Shown here piece after piece: positions 55,258 through 64,000 of a stretch of 64,000 bases of DNA. Source of the DNA: Candidatus Gugararchaeum adminiculabundum (GTDB taxonomy: Archaea > Micrarchaeota > Micrarchaeia > Burarchaeales > Gugararchaeaceae); contig CABMDC010000004.1 of the NCBI GenBank assembly GCA_902384795.1, positions 65,002 to 129,001 on the forward strand. Direction: 5' to 3'. The position numbers were made by a program, and so were the translations under genes. Under the pieces are notes generated by a model that was given only the letters and a program-made list of their open reading frames with translations, ran no database searches and had not been told where the DNA came from. Numbering within the stretch: position 1 is the stretch's first letter; each line of letters starts with the position of its first letter.

Positions 55258-55881
55258 TCAACGCTTGAGATCTTCGAGCCGGACTAATTTACCTGGAGTA
55301 TTGTTCTCGATATCTCGATCTAATTCTTCTACCAATTTCTTTTCCCTTTTTGTCAGCACATAGCCGAATCTCCTTAAATCCGCATTTATCTGCGCCTTTG
55401 AAGCGAATTTTCCATAGGGGGTTTGCCTGATCCTTTCCTTTTCAATTCTGCTCCGCTCGTGAAAAACTATTTCATTTCCGTAGTATGAAAGCAGCTTTGC
55501 GATCTTCTTTGCCCGGTATGTTCCCTTTTCATTGTTTCGCTTTATTCTGTCTGAAATGACCAACCTTGCACTCATCTTCTTGTTCACCACGTGGATTTGA
55601 TTTGACTGGGCCCAGGAAATTCCCAAGGCTTCCTGCGCAGTGGAGCAGCTGTAGTAAAAGTCATTGCTCTTTAGGAACAGGGCTATTGCTCCGGACAATA
55701 CCCTGAGGGGGCTTTCGATGAACTGTCCCCTTCTTTCCTCGGGCAATGGAACGTAGTAGATTCCCTTGAAAGGGGTCGGAAAGAGCTTTAGCCCGGAGTA
55801 CATGTCTGTAATCTGCTTTTTGGTGTAACCCTCTTGCAGCAGCTGCTCAAAACTAATTACCTGCTTTGGAAGCATTTTCAA
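55258..55881 (-). CDS. AbiEi-like regulator/antitoxin candidate
   Basis: There are 207 residues. The N-terminus (ISFEQLLQEGYTKKQITDMYSGLKLFPTPFKGIYYVP) is a winged-helix/HTH of the kind in AbiEi antitoxins and related type IV regulators. The middle (SPLRVLSGAIALFLKSNDFYYSCSTAQEALGISWAQSNQIHVVNKK) matches the AbiEi-like pattern of sensing whether the partner is present. The C-terminus is basic. The start is TTG 55881 or ATG 55875, and it overlaps the end of the upstream nucleotidyltransferase gene by 20-30 bases. In classic AbiE systems the antitoxin gene comes first; here it is second. Confidence 0.7.
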   Translation of the reverse strand: MKMLPKQVISFEQLLQEGYTKKQITDMYSGLKLFPTPFKGIYYVPLPEERRGQFIESPLRVLSGAIALFLKSNDFYYSCSTAQEALGISWAQSNQIHVVNKKMSARLVISDRIKRNNEKGTYRAKKIAKLLSYYGNEIVFHERSRIEKERIRQTPYGKFASKAQINADLRRFGYVLTKREKKLVEELDRDIENNTPGKLVRLEDLKR

Positions 55882-56455
55882 TCACCTTGCTGAAAAAATC
55901 CCGGTCCTCCTCGTTCAGCGTAATGTTTCGTATCTCGCCGAAATTTTTAGGAAAACCGAATTTTGCAATCAGTTCCCTGATTTTTTCAAATCCTTGTTTC
56001 TTGCTCTTTAGGATGAAAATAATATCGTACAAATCCCTTGCTTCCATTCTTTCGGAATAGCTCTGCAATTTCATCTCAAAGATATCGTCCAAAGATGCGA
56101 CTCTCAATTTTGCATTTCCAAAAGAGTGCTCGTCGAATTTCTTTATTTTGTAATCCGGAATGAAAACTTCCACTTTTATGCTGGTGTCCTCAAACTGGAT
56201 GACGAACTGATTTGTGTACACTCCGCTGCTTGTCCTGAATCCTTTCCTGCTCAGGCATCCCTTCAATGTTTCTTTCATTTTTGCCGCATTGCCTTCAAGC
56301 GGAACAAAATCCAGGTCAATGCTAATCCTGTGCTTCAGATGGAAAAGCGCCAATGCGGTTCCGCCAACAAGGATGAACTTCTTTTGTGTGCACTCGGCGA
56401 CATCTGGAAGGATTTCCAGCACCCGCTTGTACTTGGAGTAAAACCGCTCATCCAT
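55853..56455 (-). CDS. AbiEii-type nucleotidyltransferase toxin candidate
   Basis: There are 200 residues of the AbiEii/AbiGii (DUF1814) nucleotidyltransferase family. The signature KFILVGGTALALFHLKHRISIDLDFVPL holds the GG(T)A motif and the D-x-D metal site. DTSIKVEVFIP and VASLDDIFEMKLQSYSERMEARDLYDI (K...R..RDLYD) are the other hallmarks. Known relatives transfer nucleotides to tRNA or other targets and act in phage defence. The TATA box GCTATTTATAGG lies about 25 bases upstream, and a 25-bp palindrome stands just beyond it. It is the first gene of the pair. Confidence 0.85.
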   Translation of the reverse strand: MDERFYSKYKRVLEILPDVAECTQKKFILVGGTALALFHLKHRISIDLDFVPLEGNAAKMKETLKGCLSRKGFRTSSGVYTNQFVIQFEDTSIKVEVFIPDYKIKKFDEHSFGNAKLRVASLDDIFEMKLQSYSERMEARDLYDIIFILKSKKQGFEKIRELIAKFGFPKNFGEIRNITLNEEDRDFFSKVIENASKAGN

Positions 56456-58120: not shown

Positions 58121-59146
58121 ATGAGAATTGATCTGGTAGAGGAAAAGTTCACTTACGACGACATACTTATAGTGCCGCAGCACACTACGATTGGCAGCAG
58201 GACCGAGATTTCCACTGACCACATATTTGCTGGCATCAAAGTCGGCCTGCCAGTGATAAGCGCTGCCATGGACACTGTTACTACCTTTGAAATGGCCAAA
58301 GCGCTTCAGGCAAAAGGCGGACTTGCTGCCTTTCCCCGCGAATCCAAGATTGAAATTGCCCGCCAGCTTGCCAAGGACAAGGTGATTACCTCATCTTTCT
58401 ACTCCATTGGGGTGAATTACAAGCCCAATGAGCTTGAGGCACTGGACATTCTATCCCAGGCAGGCGGCAAGCAGCTCATCAACATTGACATTGCCCATGG
58501 AGACTGCGCCAAAATGGAAAAGGCGCTTGACTTCTATTCAAAGAAATACCCGAGCTTCATCCTGATGGCAGGGAATGTGGCAACCCCGGATGCTGCTCTT
58601 CGCCTGTCCAAAGCAGGGGCGGACATAGTGAAAGCCGGGATTGGGCCAGGGGCTGTTTGCTCCACGCGCATCAATACCGGAGTGGGGTATCCCCAGGCAA
58701 GCGCCATAATGGAAGTGCGCAAAAAGTACGATGGCGCGCTTGTTGCCGATGGAGGGGTGAATTACATAGGGGATGTGTGCAAGGCGCTGGCAATTGGCGC
58801 TGATGCGGTGATGATTGGAAGGCTGTTTGCGCAGACATCCGAATCCGCTGGCAAGATTGTCGAGATTGGGGGAAAGAAGTTCAAGGAATACAGGGGAATG
58901 GCCTCGCCCGCTGCCAAGGCGAACAGGAATGAGAAGGATTCAAAGCGGTTTGTTGAAGGGGAATCGTTCATGGTCCCTATTGAAGGCTCTGTTTTGACTG
59001 TTTTGGACAATATACGGGACGGATTGCTTTCCGCCATGAGCTACTCGGATTCGCGCACTATTAAAGAATTTAAAACCAAGGCTGATTTGGTTCGTATTTC
59101 TGGTGCGACTGCGCGCGAGAACTCGATACGGAAGGAATTGAAATAA
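58121..59146 (+). CDS. guaC: IMP dehydrogenase/GMP reductase family protein, GMP reductase-like
   Basis: This enzyme interconverts purine nucleotides on a TIM barrel. There are 341 residues from ATG 58121; no CBS domains are present, and the length is that of GMP reductase (about 345). FTYDDILIVPQHT and VISAAMDTVTTFEMAKAL are family N-terminal motifs. The active-site loop is GIGPGAVCSTRINTGVGYPQ with catalytic C180; GVGYPQ is GMP reductase-like. VADGGVNYIGDVCKALAIGADAVMIGRL follows, and YRGMASPAAKANR is the flap. GMP reductase (GMP to IMP) is more likely than IMP dehydrogenase, but a CBS-less IMPDH cannot be excluded. Its last 31 bases before the stop's final base are duplicated at 62102-62132. 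Confidence 0.88.
   Translation: MRIDLVEEKFTYDDILIVPQHTTIGSRTEISTDHIFAGIKVGLPVISAAMDTVTTFEMAKALQAKGGLAAFPRESKIEIARQLAKDKVITSSFYSIGVNYKPNELEALDILSQAGGKQLINIDIAHGDCAKMEKALDFYSKKYPSFILMAGNVATPDAALRLSKAGADIVKAGIGPGAVCSTRINTGVGYPQASAIMEVRKKYDGALVADGGVNYIGDVCKALAIGADAVMIGRLFAQTSESAGKIVEIGGKKFKEYRGMASPAAKANRNEKDSKRFVEGESFMVPIEGSVLTVLDNIRDGLLSAMSYSDSRTIKEFKTKADLVRISGATARENSIRKELK
59115..59145 (+). repeat. Repeat A: 3' end of guaC (copy 1)
   Basis: These 31 bases encode the last residues of GuaC (RENSIRKELK and the first two bases of the stop). They recur exactly at 62102-62132 and in part at 60305-60324. Copy 1 is the one inside the intact gene, hence the likely original. Confidence 0.85.
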
Positions 59147-59243
59147 GCTGGAACTATAATCGAGGATACTAGGGCGAGGACTGGATGCCCGAGAGAAAGA
59201 AAACAATTTAAATAGTACAGCTAATACAGTAAATGGGCATCGT

Positions 59244-59450
59244 ATGAAGGCAGATTTGGAAGTGCTGAGGGCTAAATTTCTGAAGGCGTATTCGTCAGTT
59301 CCGGATAAGCTTAGGGATGATGTAGTCGCCGTGGTAGACGACAAAACTTATAGCTGGAATTCTGCATTCATAGAAGTTAACGGAAAAACTCCCCTGGGAG
59401 ATAAGATTATTAGGAAGCTCGAAGAAATAGGTATGTTTGGGCAGAAGTGA
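59244..59450 (+). CDS. Small unknown protein, first gene of the peptidase trio
   Basis: There are 68 residues (MKADLEVLRAKFLKAYSSVPDKLRDDVVAVVD, then YSWNSAFIEVNGKTPLGDKIIRKLEEIGMFG). It has a helix-strand-helix layout and no membrane segment. I recall similar short proteins in archaeal genomes but know no function. A TATA box (TTTAAATAG, about 59205) is 35 bases upstream. The next gene begins with a GTGA overlap of four bases, so translation is coupled. Confidence 0.7.
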   Translation: MKADLEVLRAKFLKAYSSVPDKLRDDVVAVVDDKTYSWNSAFIEVNGKTPLGDKIIRKLEEIGMFGQK

Positions 59451-59686
59451 TCCGTATGGGCGAAGATTACGTAAAAGAACTTGTTATAGCACGATTGCGG
59501 ACTATTCCGCCGAATATTGGCTTTTCCGTAGGTTCCCATGGGGACTTCACAAGGGATGAAATAATCAATCAGGTCAGCAAAGGAACGGACATAGGAAAGG
59601 AGTTTGCTGCGATTGAAATCAAAATGCTTATTGATACCCCGAAGCTGGTTGGTCGGTTAAGTGGAAAAACGCCTTCTTCTCACTAG
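59447..59686 (+). CDS. Small unknown protein, second gene of the peptidase trio
   Basis: There are 79 residues from GTG 59447 (ATG 59456 is an alternative). It is helical with a GFSVGSHGDFTRDEIINQVSKGTDIG centre, which has the look of a compact HTH or adaptor. It overlaps the gene before it by four bases and the peptidase gene after it by 26 bases. The tight nesting of three frames argues that the products act together. It may be the switch or substrate of the CHAT-like peptidase, but that is a guess. Confidence 0.7.
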   Translation: MIRMGEDYVKELVIARLRTIPPNIGFSVGSHGDFTRDEIINQVSKGTDIGKEFAAIEIKMLIDTPKLVGRLSGKTPSSH

Positions 59687-60302
59687 GTCAAGGCACGATA
59701 TCGCCAACCAATACTTGTATGCTTATTCTGAGGAGATAATAGCAGAGGCGGATAGTTTAGGGTGGAAAACGGACAGAGTTGAAAACGAGAAGAACCAGAG
59801 GAAAGAAGTGGAATCCAGATTAACGAAAAGCGCCTATGATTTCGTATTCTTTAACGGCCATGGAACGGATGAGTCTGTTTCCGGCCATGGAGATGAAAAA
59901 CTTGTTGATGCCGGTTCGGCATCAATTTTGAAGGATAAGATAGTGTTTGCCCGGAGCTGTTCCGCGTTGAATACACTTGGAAAAGAAGCTGTCAAAAAAG
60001 GATGCAAAGCGTTCATAGGGTATAACGGGCTTTTCTTTATTTCTTATACAAATGAATACCAGTCAACGCCGCTGAAAGACCCTACTGCAAGGCCGGTGAT
60101 GGAAGTTTCAAATTTGGCAGGGAAGTTGATACTGAAGGGAGATACTGTTCAAACAGCAGTTGAAGCCGCCCAGCGCAAGGCAGGAGATTTAATCCTGAAA
60201 ATGCTGGCTTCAAAAGAACCGTATGATGCTGGAACTTTCAGGGCGCTTTACCAGAATTATATGACGTTTTCTTTTACGGGAGATGGGCAGGCGAAGGCGT
60301 AA
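59661..60302 (+). CDS. Caspase/CHAT-like cysteine peptidase
   Basis: There are 213 residues from GTG 59661. A caspase-fold dyad is visible: H67 in FVFFNGHGTDESVSGHG (the NGHG motif of clan CD) and C100 in KIVFARSCSALNTLG (a strand ending A-R-S-C-S-A). KGCKAFIGYNGLFFI adds the next strand. The rest of the sequence fits a CHAT-type peptidase, which in bacteria and archaea often belongs to gene-cassette defence or programmed-death systems. Repeat B starts two bases after its stop. Membrane segments are absent. The cleavage target is unknown. Confidence 0.75.
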   Translation: MEKRLLLTRSRHDIANQYLYAYSEEIIAEADSLGWKTDRVENEKNQRKEVESRLTKSAYDFVFFNGHGTDESVSGHGDEKLVDAGSASILKDKIVFARSCSALNTLGKEAVKKGCKAFIGYNGLFFISYTNEYQSTPLKDPTARPVMEVSNLAGKLILKGDTVQTAVEAAQRKAGDLILKMLASKEPYDAGTFRALYQNYMTFSFTGDGQAKA

Positions 60303-60304
60303 AT

Positions 60305-60353
60305 TACGGAAGGAATTGAAATAAACTAGGGACGGGGATATTGGGGACGAAGA
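60305..60353 (+). repeat. Repeat B: guaC 3'-end-like repeat (copy 2)
   Basis: TACGGAAGGAATTGAAATAA (60305-60324) matches the end of guaC, and the following bases to 60353 (ACTAGGGACGGGGATATTGG and on) match copy 3 with one inserted base and one mismatch. It starts two bases after the peptidase stop codon. Confidence 0.85.
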
Positions 60354-60429
60354 AGGGATTGACGGACACTATTCAGCGGCAACGTAGACTAGTGACGTTT
60401 TTATACTACTTGAATTCCTATTACCGGTT

Positions 60430-61281
60430 ATGTTCAGAAGGCAGAAAGTGTTGTTGTACCTGATGTTTGCGCTAAATCGCCGCGGAAAAAAGATAACAAA
60501 GACCTATTTAGACAAACTACTTTTCGTTTTGAGGAAAGAAACAAACATTGGAGATTTTGTCAAGTTTTACAATTTTTTCCCTTACAATTACGGGCCTTTT
60601 TCTAACCAGTTTTATTTTGATTTGGCTGATTTGTACAGCCATGCTTATTTGGCGGATGAATTCGAAGTAAAACTGCCTGCAAAAGAGGTAGAAGATTTTT
60701 TGAACGCCGAAGAAAAACAGCTGGCAAACAAAATCATAGAGAAATATGGTGATTATTCTACTGACCAGATTAAGGACTACGTCTATTCGACTTATCCGGA
60801 ATACGCCCAAAAGAGCTTATTGAAAGCCCAAAAAGAGCAGGAAGGGAAACCAGGTATTTTTTCGATTGGCTACGAGAAGAAAGACATTGACCTGTTTTTG
60901 GATTTGTTGGTACAGAATGGCATTGATACGCTGGTGGATGTGCGGGCCAATGCATTCAGCATGAATTTCTCCTTTACAAAATCAAAACTTGTGAATTACC
61001 TTGAGAAGGTGGGAATTGAATATTTGCATGTCCCGGAATTAGGGATTAGCGGCGAATTCAGAAAAGGCCTGGATAGTGATGCTGATTATGTTAAGCTGTT
61101 TGAATTTTATCAAAGCAGCATTTTGCCAAAACAAGCGAAAAAAGTTGAAGAGGTATACGAGCTTGGCAGGAAAAAGCGGATTGCACTGCTGTGTTTTGAA
61201 CAGGATAAGGGGCACTGCCACAGGGGAGTGCTAAGCAAAGAGCTGGAGAGATGCTACGGCGTGCAGGTGACGCATTTATGA
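60430..61281 (+). CDS. DUF4065 (SocA-like)-DUF488 fusion protein
   Basis: There are 283 residues in two domains. Residues 1-135 (FRRQKVLLYLMFALNRRGKKITKTYLDKLLFVLRKE...FYNFFPYNYGPFSNQFYFDL) have the YGP motif and helical pattern of the DUF4065/Panacea (SocA-like antitoxin) domain. Residues 142-283 are DUF488: IFSIGYEKKDIDLFLDLLVQNGIDTLVDVR, then NYLEKVGIEYLHVPELGI, then ALLCFEQDKGHCHRGVLSKEL with conserved Cys-His-Arg. The stop overlaps the next gene's start (ATGA). Fusion of a putative antitoxin-type sensor to DUF488 suggests a defence or stress role; biochemical activity of DUF488 is unknown to me. Confidence 0.8.
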   Translation: MFRRQKVLLYLMFALNRRGKKITKTYLDKLLFVLRKETNIGDFVKFYNFFPYNYGPFSNQFYFDLADLYSHAYLADEFEVKLPAKEVEDFLNAEEKQLANKIIEKYGDYSTDQIKDYVYSTYPEYAQKSLLKAQKEQEGKPGIFSIGYEKKDIDLFLDLLVQNGIDTLVDVRANAFSMNFSFTKSKLVNYLEKVGIEYLHVPELGISGEFRKGLDSDADYVKLFEFYQSSILPKQAKKVEEVYELGRKKRIALLCFEQDKGHCHRGVLSKELERCYGVQVTHL

Positions 61282-62045
61282 AAGAGAGATTGCTGGTGCT
61301 TGCCAAAGCAGCGCCGGAAGCAAGCCAAAAGTACGAAGAGCTCATTTGTGTTGCGGGGATTACAGACAAAGGAGAATGGAGGCGGATTTACCCAATTCCG
61401 TGGGAACTTTTTTTGAAGACAAGCGCTTCAAGGTTTAGAAAAAAATGGTGGATTGAATACGAGCTTGCTTCGGATAAACCTTCAGATTACAGGCCTGAGA
61501 GCAGAAAAATAAAGTTTGAGACCATAAAGCCAGTAAGAGAAGCGTCGTTTAAAGAAATAGATGCGCTGCTTTCGCAAAGAGTCCAAACACTGGACGAAAT
61601 AGGGGAAAAAGGAGTGAAAATCCAGTCGTTGGGCGTTGTGCAGCCAAGAGAAGTTTTAGATTTTCTTCCTTCAGACAACCCACATTATGAAAAACTAGTA
61701 ACGATGGGCAAACAACAGGATTTGTTCGGCCAATCGGCAATGAAACTTAACCCGCCTAAATTCAAGTACAGATATAGATTCAAAGATGATGCCGAGGGAA
61801 AAATACACGAAAATCTGTGTGAAGACTGGGAGGCCGTAATGCTTTACATAAACTGCGAAAGAATGCGGCTTGCAGGAAGATATCCTGACGAAAAAACGGT
61901 CCATGAAAAAGTAAGGCAGAAAATGCTCAGGGACATATTCAAGCAGGGGAAAGTATACTTCATAGTCGGATCGCATTACAGGTTTCCGACATTCATGATA
62001 GTTGGCGTCGTTTATCCGAAGAAAGAGGATATGAAACGTGGTTAG
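61278..62045 (+). CDS. Unknown partner of the DUF4065-DUF488 protein
   Basis: From ATG 61278 the protein has 255 residues and overlaps the preceding stop by four bases. MKERLLVLAKAAPEASQKYEELICVAGITDKGEWRRIYPIPWELF opens with a beta-rich module. RIYPIPW and SRFRKKWWIEYE are distinctive. The C-terminal half holds Arg/Lys-rich helices (NCERMRLAGRYPDEKTVHEKVRQKMLRDIF) and ends YFIVGSHYRFPTFMIVGVVYP, a beta strand with a conserved-looking GSHxRFP. No enzyme family can be named. It is translationally coupled to the DUF488 fusion, so the two form one module. Confidence 0.7.
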   Translation: MKERLLVLAKAAPEASQKYEELICVAGITDKGEWRRIYPIPWELFLKTSASRFRKKWWIEYELASDKPSDYRPESRKIKFETIKPVREASFKEIDALLSQRVQTLDEIGEKGVKIQSLGVVQPREVLDFLPSDNPHYEKLVTMGKQQDLFGQSAMKLNPPKFKYRYRFKDDAEGKIHENLCEDWEAVMLYINCERMRLAGRYPDEKTVHEKVRQKMLRDIFKQGKVYFIVGSHYRFPTFMIVGVVYPKKEDMKRG

Positions 62046-62101
62046 AACTGTTTGAAGCATCCTTCTGGGCAATAAACAGTTAAGGTATCCTGCGGCTGGG
62101 A

Positions 62102-62160
62102 GCGAGAACTCGATACGGAAGGAATTGAAATAGAACTAGGGACGGGGATATTGGGGACGG
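62102..62160 (+). repeat. Repeat C: guaC 3'-end-like repeat (copy 3)
   Basis: The first 31 bases (62102-62132) are identical to the guaC end (59115-59145), and the remainder to 62160 matches copy 2. It lies 56 bases after the stop of the second cassette's last gene. It is a non-coding remnant here. Confidence 0.85.
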
Positions 62161-62220
62161 AGATTGGATCTCCGGACCTTAGATTTTTTATTCGTTTCTC
62201 ACCAAATACAATGCGATTGA

Positions 62221-63654
62221 ATGTATAACGTAAAAGAAATAGATGAAAACGAAGCCATTGCAATTTTGTCTAAAGATGAGAGTCACTTTTTAGATTTCAA
62301 ACATAGAAAAGTAAGCGGCAATAAATTCCAGAGAATTGCGTGCTCTTTTGCAAATTCCGATGGTGGCGAGATTTACGTAGGGATCTGTGATAAAAAAGAA
62401 ACACCGGTATCTAATCAGCTTGACCTTTGGGACGGACTAGAAAACCAGGAGGAAGCAAATACATTGCTTCAAAACCTGTATAACGAAATATCTCCCTCGA
62501 TAGAACCGCGAGATGCAGAATTTTACAAAATTAAGGGAAACGACCAGAAAGGTTTAGTTCTGAGAATTTTGATAGATAAGAGCCCTAAAATTCATTATAC
62601 CTCTGAGAAAAAAGTGTGGGTGAGAAAAAATGCGCAGTGTATAGAAATTCCTCCACAAGGAGTAGTTGACCTACAATTGTCAAAAGGAGTGACATCTTAC
62701 GAGACACAATTTGTAGAAAATTTTGAAACAGAGAACTTGGAATCTTCTACTGCCTTAAGAAAGTTTTTGGATTACTATTCTCCAAAAAGCGAACCAAGCG
62801 AATTTTTGCGCAAGCAATATCTAATAAGAAAAAAAGATGGCAAGGAATTTGCTACTTACGCAGCAGTTCTGCTTTTTGCAGAAACCCCTTCTGCGATTCT
62901 ACCTAAAAAATGTGCAGTAAAAATAAGCAGATACAATACTTCAGAAAATGAACCGGAAAGAGAGCACTTGGGGGAGCAGACAACCGTAGAAGGCCCGTTG
63001 TATCAACAGATTAGTGATGCGATTTCAAGTATAAAAACAACTATAGGGGATATTTCTGTTTTGACTAGAGATGGCATGGCAAAAGCCGAGTATCCGGCAG
63101 ATGCGATAAAAGAGATATTGGTAAACGCAGTTATTCATAGAGATTATAATATTTCTGAGGATATTCAAGTTTTTATCTTTAATAACAGAATTGTCATTAA
63201 GAGTCCTGGCCTTCTTGCCGGACATGTAACTACCCGGAATATTCTAGAAGAAAGATTTTCGCGTAATAATACAATCGTTAGGATATTGAACAAATTTCAA
63301 AATCCACCAAATAAAGATATCGGAGAAGGTTTGAATACTGCATTTCAAAAAATGAAAGAGGTTAAATTAAAACCGCCGATAATTGAAGAAAGGGATAACT
63401 CAGTGCTAGTTACATTACCACACGAGTATCTGGCAGCACCGGAGGACATGGTTCTTGAATATCTGGAGAAACATGGGGAGATAACGAATAGTATTGGTAG
63501 AACACTTACTGGCATCAAATCAGAAAACAAAATGAAAAATGTCTTTCTTAAATTGGCGAAAAGGAATTTGGTGGAGAGAGTCCCGGATAAACAGAGCATA
63601 AACTCGGCGTGGAGAAAGAAAAGGATTGAACAGCCGATTAAACCCTCAACCTAA
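62221..63654 (+). CDS. Schlafen AlbA-domain ATPase-like regulator
   Basis: There are 477 residues. N-terminal Schlafen AlbA_2 domain: ESHFLDFKHRKVSGNKFQRIACSFANSDGGEIYVGI, with the conserved SFANSDGG and IYVGI, to about residue 135. Centre: FATYAAVLLFAETPSAILPKKCAVKISRY and then a GHKL/HATPase-type domain, with YPADAIKEILVNAVIHRDY as the N-box region and IGEGLNTAF as a lid-like motif. C-terminus: a winged-helix region (DMVLEYLEKHGEITNSIGRTLTG). This is the RecG-like/ATP-binding Slfn protein architecture often found in accessory and defence regions. The only methyltransferase gene of the window follows 70 bases later. Confidence 0.85.
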   Translation: MYNVKEIDENEAIAILSKDESHFLDFKHRKVSGNKFQRIACSFANSDGGEIYVGICDKKETPVSNQLDLWDGLENQEEANTLLQNLYNEISPSIEPRDAEFYKIKGNDQKGLVLRILIDKSPKIHYTSEKKVWVRKNAQCIEIPPQGVVDLQLSKGVTSYETQFVENFETENLESSTALRKFLDYYSPKSEPSEFLRKQYLIRKKDGKEFATYAAVLLFAETPSAILPKKCAVKISRYNTSENEPEREHLGEQTTVEGPLYQQISDAISSIKTTIGDISVLTRDGMAKAEYPADAIKEILVNAVIHRDYNISEDIQVFIFNNRIVIKSPGLLAGHVTTRNILEERFSRNNTIVRILNKFQNPPNKDIGEGLNTAFQKMKEVKLKPPIIEERDNSVLVTLPHEYLAAPEDMVLEYLEKHGEITNSIGRTLTGIKSENKMKNVFLKLAKRNLVERVPDKQSINSAWRKKRIEQPIKPST

Positions 63655-63709: not shown

Positions 63710-63729
63710 ATGTGTCAATTTTGACACAT
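63710..63729. promoter_or_regulatory. Palindromic operator covering the methyltransferase start codon
   Basis: Perfect inverted repeat: ATGTGTCAA (63710-63718), TT, TTGACACAT (63721-63729). The last two bases are the first two of the start codon at 63728. A protein bound here would block both the transcription start and the first codon of the gene. The gene's own N-terminal ribbon-helix-helix domain is the obvious candidate. Confidence 0.75.
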
Positions 63730-64000
63730 GGCGAAGAAGATACAGGTAGTCTTTACAGACGAACAGTGGGATGTGATAGACACCCTCCGCGGCAGGATGG
63801 GGGAGAGCGACGCGGACCTGGTCAGGAACATCGCGATAGCCTGGATGTCGGAAAAGTCCATGATAAAGCCGCGTGGGAATTCCGATGGAAAATTCTATTT
63901 TGTGGATCTTTTCAGCGGAGCCGGCGGGCTTTCGAAAGGTCTTGAGATGGCTGGACTGACCTGTGCCCTGGGGGTCGACTTTGATAAGACCGCCATCAGG
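63728..64000 (+). CDS. DNA cytosine-5 methyltransferase with N-terminal ribbon-helix-helix domain, partial
   Basis: An open frame of 91 codons runs off the right edge. Residues 1-46 (KIQVVFTDEQWDVIDTLRGRMGESDADLVRNIAIAWMSEK) form a ribbon-helix-helix DNA-binding domain of the archaeal CopG type. After a short linker, FYFVDLFSGAGGLSKGLEMAGLTCALGVDFDKTAI is motif I and motif II of an m5C methyltransferase (SAM-binding FxGxG: LFSGAGG). The catalytic PC motif lies outside the window. It is probably a solitary or restriction-modification methyltransferase. The N-terminal domain together with the palindrome over its start suggests self-repression. Confidence 0.9.
   Translation, partial: MAKKIQVVFTDEQWDVIDTLRGRMGESDADLVRNIAIAWMSEKSMIKPRGNSDGKFYFVDLFSGAGGLSKGLEMAGLTCALGVDFDKTAIR

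Follow-up and report, generated by a model that had tools for sequence, protein, structure and literature searches.

Integrons reuse one shared attC-type site, and the minimal mobile elements (MMEs) of Neisseria are small cassettes swapped between core genes without mobility genes; they are not known to leave stubs of flanking genes. For restriction-modification (R-M) genes of Helicobacter pylori, Nobusato et al. reportedly described insertion with long target duplication in 2000. At icd, prophage e14 is accompanied by a 165-bp duplicated gene end with 12 nucleotide changes and two conservative amino-acid changes (PMC11148124), and the Neisseria MMEs appear by name in a further report (PMC3082526). 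Here we describe a guaC-like gene of Candidatus Gugararchaeum adminiculabundum, located in a 64,000-nucleotide stretch of contig CABMDC010000004.1 (hereafter the window), whose 3' end recurs behind each of two small gene sets. Insertion at the 3' end of guaC is the best reading of this locus. Insertion at gene 3' ends is moreover a general pattern, seen elsewhere in this genome and in relatives of the same order, and this recurrence is the part of the pattern worth following.

The guaC locus

The target gene belongs to the IMP dehydrogenase/GMP reductase family (58121..59146, plus strand; Pfam PF00478, E 2.3e-77) and has a GC content of 0.52 in a genome of about 0.50. Copy 1 of the repeat (59104..59190, plus strand) is the intact guaC 3' end with about 45 nt of diverged downstream sequence. 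Copy 2 (60305..60367, plus strand) holds the final 18-19 coding nt of guaC, the stop and about 45 nt downstream, while copy 3 (62091..62177, plus strand) is a C-terminal stub of guaC (ENSIRKELK followed by the stop) with downstream sequence that we read as the native flank. A sequence-only reading of the window had reported that the guaC 3' end recurs at two later sites, and our alignments agree: 59104-59145 and 62091-62132 are the same at 39 of 42 nt (93%), including a single exact run of 31 nt, and copy 2 is identical at 22 of 23 nt (60305-60327). Its claim that copies 2 and 3 stay similar further on also holds, with an additional 44 nt in common at 86%; about 45 nt past the stop can be aligned in all three copies, copies 2 and 3 being closest and copy 1 poorer. 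In terms of the whole genome, the match of copies 1 and 3 has an E value of 1.8e-11 and that of copies 2 and 3 an E value of 4.6e-17, and an 18-mer of the repeat occurs three times in the window where 0.08 occurrences are expected.

Is the repeat a genome-wide element, as the same reading had allowed? The genome (1.47 Mb, 26 contigs) was read stretch by stretch and then joined for genome-wide analysis. It contains no fourth copy of the guaC end, and nothing along the contig rises above shuffled scores; the repeat therefore belongs to the guaC locus and is not a dispersed element.

Copies 2 and 3 each lie just after a small gene set, as had been noted. Insert 1 (59244..60302, plus strand, GC 0.44) consists of three small open reading frames (ORFs) of 68, 79 and 213 amino acids and ends 2 bp before copy 2. 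Its description as a peptidase trio was not confirmed: none of the three proteins has a Pfam, NCBIfam or PDB match. The FNGHG and FARSC motifs of the 213-amino-acid protein suggest a candidate caspase/C25-like peptidase, and its structure model (pLDDT 51) is a low-confidence fold, too poor for use. Insert 2 (60430-62045, GC 0.42) ends about 45-57 bp ahead of copy 3. Gene A (60430..61281, plus strand) combines a SocA/Panacea-like N-terminus with DUF488 (Pfam PF04343, 7.9e-26; PF13274, 1.6e-5) and matches PADLOC PDC-M19A at 7.1e-75; gene B (61251..62045, plus strand) matches PADLOC PDC-M19B at 1.2e-42. What had been called a DUF488 pair thus keeps its DUF488 in gene A, and the pair itself is corrected to tandem homologs of M19A and M19B, which constitute the PADLOC candidate defence pair PDC-M19.

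The target 3' end thus stands as a direct repeat at both insert boundaries, with guaC intact, as in genomic islands and cis-mobilizable elements (CIMEs). No recombinase was found within the guaC inserts or in the ORFs around the locus, as the sequence-only reading had remarked, and the sole tyrosine recombinase of the genome (PF00589) lies on another contig (C7, 53975-55129), unlinked to guaC. Long direct repeats around a defence-type insert without a recombinase are likewise the arrangement of insertion with long target duplication. Searches of viral contigs for the guaC end or PDC-M19A found none, and phages and plasmids gave only partial matches to DUF488.

Gene-end stubs elsewhere in the genome and in relatives

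C-terminal stubs were sought across the genome by an in-register search, with gene tails paired with random other regions as the null. The null gave no hits at scores of at least 48 and 0.4 per round at 40; the guaC stub scores 46. In-register stubs were detected downstream of purN, cdc6, an Mre11-like gene, a presenilin-like gene, a DUF1931 histone-fold gene (assigned through PDB 9qt0, E 3.6e-7) and guaC, each parted from its intact gene by a compact insert of 0.54-3 kb. There is a single insert at each of about five other genes and there are two at guaC. Two of the inserts are toxin-antitoxin-like pairs. The purN insert encodes a pair that is RelBE-like by sequence and has no family match, and the cdc6 insert encodes an RHH-like protein and a ParE toxin. 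No common core was seen among the target repeats, each locus carrying the end of its own gene; none of the gene-end inserts contains a recombinase, and the genome has no serine recombinase.

Local non-paralogous direct repeats in this genome lie mostly at the 3' ends of genes, where 19 were counted (a repeat pair being shared by some of the genes), against six at 5' ends and one mid-gene; a single inverted repeat was found at gene 3' ends. Stubs of 3' ends outnumber stubs of 5' ends 10 to 1.

A comparison of gene ends with their stubs, pooled over loci, gives 16, 12 and 48 differences at codon positions 1, 2 and 3, and 41 of the 64 changed codons are synonymous. When only loci from the nucleotide scan are taken, with no protein-level search, 35 of 58 differences still fall at position 3 (p = 2e-5). 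The pooled third-position bias implies that gene end and stub were both coding sequences as they drifted apart, which is what the allele of another lineage at one of the two places would give. This pooled pattern resembles icd and icdC at prophage e14 more closely than it does a decaying target duplication.

Two genomes of the same order, G054 and G038, were sampled in part and yielded stub loci at rfcS, fttA, a papain-like gene and an Lrp-like gene. The rfcS insert encodes an AbiEi_2 protein (AbiEi-like) and a partner; the fttA insert encodes RidA, an RHH-like protein, a ParE-type toxin and a TPR protein. In G038 (L267:6800-13107), the end of the papain-like gene occurs three times around a set of helicase, Fic and AbiE genes and a single-gene insert, possibly a second tandem array.

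Some loci were discarded or held as doubtful. Three sites first counted as stub-like (C1:163688, C7:38011 and C18:64397) were rejected as members of a dispersed repeat family, and candidate L040 was set aside because it is probably a tandem duplication. The dispersed repeat is intergenic, about 110 bp long and present in 31 BLAST pieces, including G000:C1:163688-163798, C7:38011-40071 and C18:64397-66219; direct pairs of it at times surround one to four genes, and the repeat itself has no Rfam match. At G000:C4:20060-21830, two adjacent genes have a common C-terminal KKASELKL (C4:20646), a weak candidate in which the inserted ORF may run into the stub.

Tyrosine recombinases and PDC-M19

At three loci from other families of the phylum (L279, L280 and L281), a PDC-M19A relative immediately follows a tyrosine recombinase that carries a zinc ribbon at its C-terminus, and PDC-M19B is also present in L279 and L281. 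This placement indicates that the cargo is mobile. Two of the three recombinase loci stand beside genes for tRNA-Val and tRNA-Gly, and L280 contains a reverse-transcriptase-like ORF as well. Members of the zinc-ribbon recombinase family are present in 70 of the 196 phylum genomes, with a single one in the genome under study; where they can be placed, they are beside tRNA genes and not at protein-gene ends. A search for att sites found no tail repeats near the integrases of G054 or in the C7 region of our genome, and the IMG/VR relatives of the recombinase yielded no stub. On contig C1 of G054, the same integrase gene occurs near 341071, 367060 and 393049, at a spacing of exactly 25,989 bp; either 26 kb are present as a tandem triplication or the assembly is at fault.

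Genome and locus setting

The small-subunit (SSU) rRNA match is of the archaeal type, the same Rfam model also responding in bacterial controls, and the genome encodes the archaeal proteins Cdc6, an Mre11-like enzyme and a presenilin-type protease. It is the sole member of its family in the comparison set. A search with the guaC-like protein for relatives returned distant bacteria and one Nanoarchaeota contig only; IMPDH relatives reach about 40% identity at best.

The neighborhood of guaC is rich in defence genes. An AbiEi/AbiEii-type pair lies on the minus strand close upstream (window 55258-56455). The gene after the last stub (62221..63654, plus strand, GC 0.376) encodes a Schlafen AlbA_2 and HATPase_c_4 protein (Pfam PF04326 and PF13749; PADLOC), a defence-island neighbor outside the repeat bounds. 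It is followed by the start of a C5 DNA methyltransferase gene (63728..64000, plus strand) and, past the window end, by a candidate restriction gene and a Vsr-type nuclease (L004:8028-9195).

Origin of the inserts

How would such loci arise? We infer that the gene sets were inserted, and that they came by homology rather than through a dedicated recombinase. Insertion at gene ends by a homology-directed route is our best explanation, offered tentatively and at somewhat less than an even chance. A small cassette would arrive joined to a 3' end related to that of the target gene and recombine there. The target would stay intact as its end is restored, with the cassette placed after its stop codon; the original 3' end, now displaced, would be left on the far side as a short silent stub. 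Two such events at guaC would give the order guaC, insert 1, stub, insert 2, stub, and the same process, acting once at each, could account for the inserts at the five other genes with stubs in this genome. The exchange might be a single crossover with a circle or fragment carrying cassette and 3' end, or one homologous and one illegitimate join. A repeat private to each target, with no common core, is what a homology-addressed process is expected to produce, and this route explains the many unrelated targets and the inserts devoid of recombinases. Repeated insertion at one gene end, as the sequence-only reading had proposed, is thus upheld insofar as two successive GC-poor inserts end in guaC-end copies and the pattern recurs at other genes.

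Several points weigh against this explanation. The guaC locus alone lacks the third-position signal, its stub differing from the guaC end by no synonymous and three nonsynonymous changes. Homologous recombination by itself leaves the excess of 3' over 5' stubs unexplained, even if selection may act against stubs of the 5' kind, which would be expressed. The homology, as short as 19-100 nt, is small by the standards of ordinary homologous recombination. The comparison with bacteria is suggestive only, at nine stubs in 2237 archaeal ORFs against 0 in 986 bacterial ORFs (p = 0.065, not significant, with a bacterial control that is small, mixed and made of incomplete loci). Finally, the family consists of this genome only, so that insertion is deduced from anatomy and statistics rather than from an empty site in a close relative.

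The strong 3' bias and the short stubs are accounted for by classical site-specific integration, in which a tyrosine recombinase would have inserted elements with substitute 3' ends, the integrase then being lost or acting in trans and the guaC inserts representing CIME-like tandem remnants. This is a real possibility, and we weigh the homology-directed route slightly above it. The icd/e14 pair sets a precedent (PMC11148124), a restored target with a displaced fragment is described by Islander as marking integrase islands (PMC4383910), and PDC-M19A/B relatives, two of them beside tRNA genes, follow a tyrosine recombinase whose family recurs in the phylum and is present once here. However, no gene-end insert contains an integrase, the core differs at every target, where one enzyme is not expected to recognize all, the recombinase family adjoins tRNA genes where it can be placed, and the inserts have a minimal look, unlike that of elements in decay. 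Insertion by some unknown process that duplicates tens of target bases in situ, as for the Helicobacter R-M genes, has the same anatomy and cargo type (PMC1643837, PMC2749054), and the guaC copies, with their 31-nt exact core and solely nonsynonymous differences, do not contradict it. A silent duplicate should nevertheless decay regardless of codon position, the opposite of the pooled stubs, and we consider this origin improbable. That nothing was inserted, the repeats being tandem duplications in decay or dispersed repeat or terminator elements, fits some local repeats (the 110-bp family and L040), yet the guaC repeat is restricted to its locus, the stubs stop short of the gene body, the inserts are unrelated to their targets, and several of them are GC-poor defence or toxin-antitoxin genes; such an origin is very improbable.

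Does homology-directed insertion extend to a whole lineage? A recombinase-free economy, in which cassettes of 1-3 defence or toxin-antitoxin genes use the 3' ends of housekeeping genes as addresses, move by short homology between diverged lineages and stack in tandem, strikes us as rather unlikely. Little is known about how defence and toxin-antitoxin modules that are small and lack an integrase spread among archaea with reduced genomes. Stubs provide a simple sequence signature that marks single transfers, names the target gene and preserves a second allele as a fossil, so gene acquisition could be counted and dated from single genomes. A homology-addressed route, if true, would be a generic mechanism that has no dedicated enzyme; if an integrase is responsible, the icd/e14 mode would extend to essential archaeal genes such as cdc6, rfcS and fttA.

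Comparison with known systems

A limited literature search found no description of integrase-less gene-end cassettes in DPANN archaea. The sequence-only reading had likened the guaC locus to an integron, and integron cassettes do share its successive small cassettes with repeated boundaries. The likeness ends there: no IntI or other integron integrase is present at guaC, no attC-type recombination site is common to the loci, and the boundaries are gene ends, each locus bearing the sequence of its own gene. Neisseria MMEs are also small cassettes without mobility genes, but a stub marks the loci described here and is not known from the MMEs. CIMEs and tandem accretion, as in islands of the guaA type, come closer, with att-like copies around integrase-less tandem segments at the end of a housekeeping gene; they differ in that no cognate integrative element or integrase was found at guaC.

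In Helicobacter pylori, insertions of R-M genes with long target duplication (PMC1643837, PMC2749054) resemble our loci in their defence cargo, long direct target repeats and absence of a recombinase. The repeats described here differ in lying at gene 3' ends and in pooled stub differences that look like allelic divergence. The e14 element is a prophage that encodes an integrase (intE), whereas our inserts are 0.5-3 kb long, have no integrase and occupy many target genes. In the anatomy of the target the two agree: at icd and icdC of E. coli K-12, as here, the target end is swapped for a mostly synonymous variant and the displaced C-terminal stub lies beyond the insert (PMC11148124).

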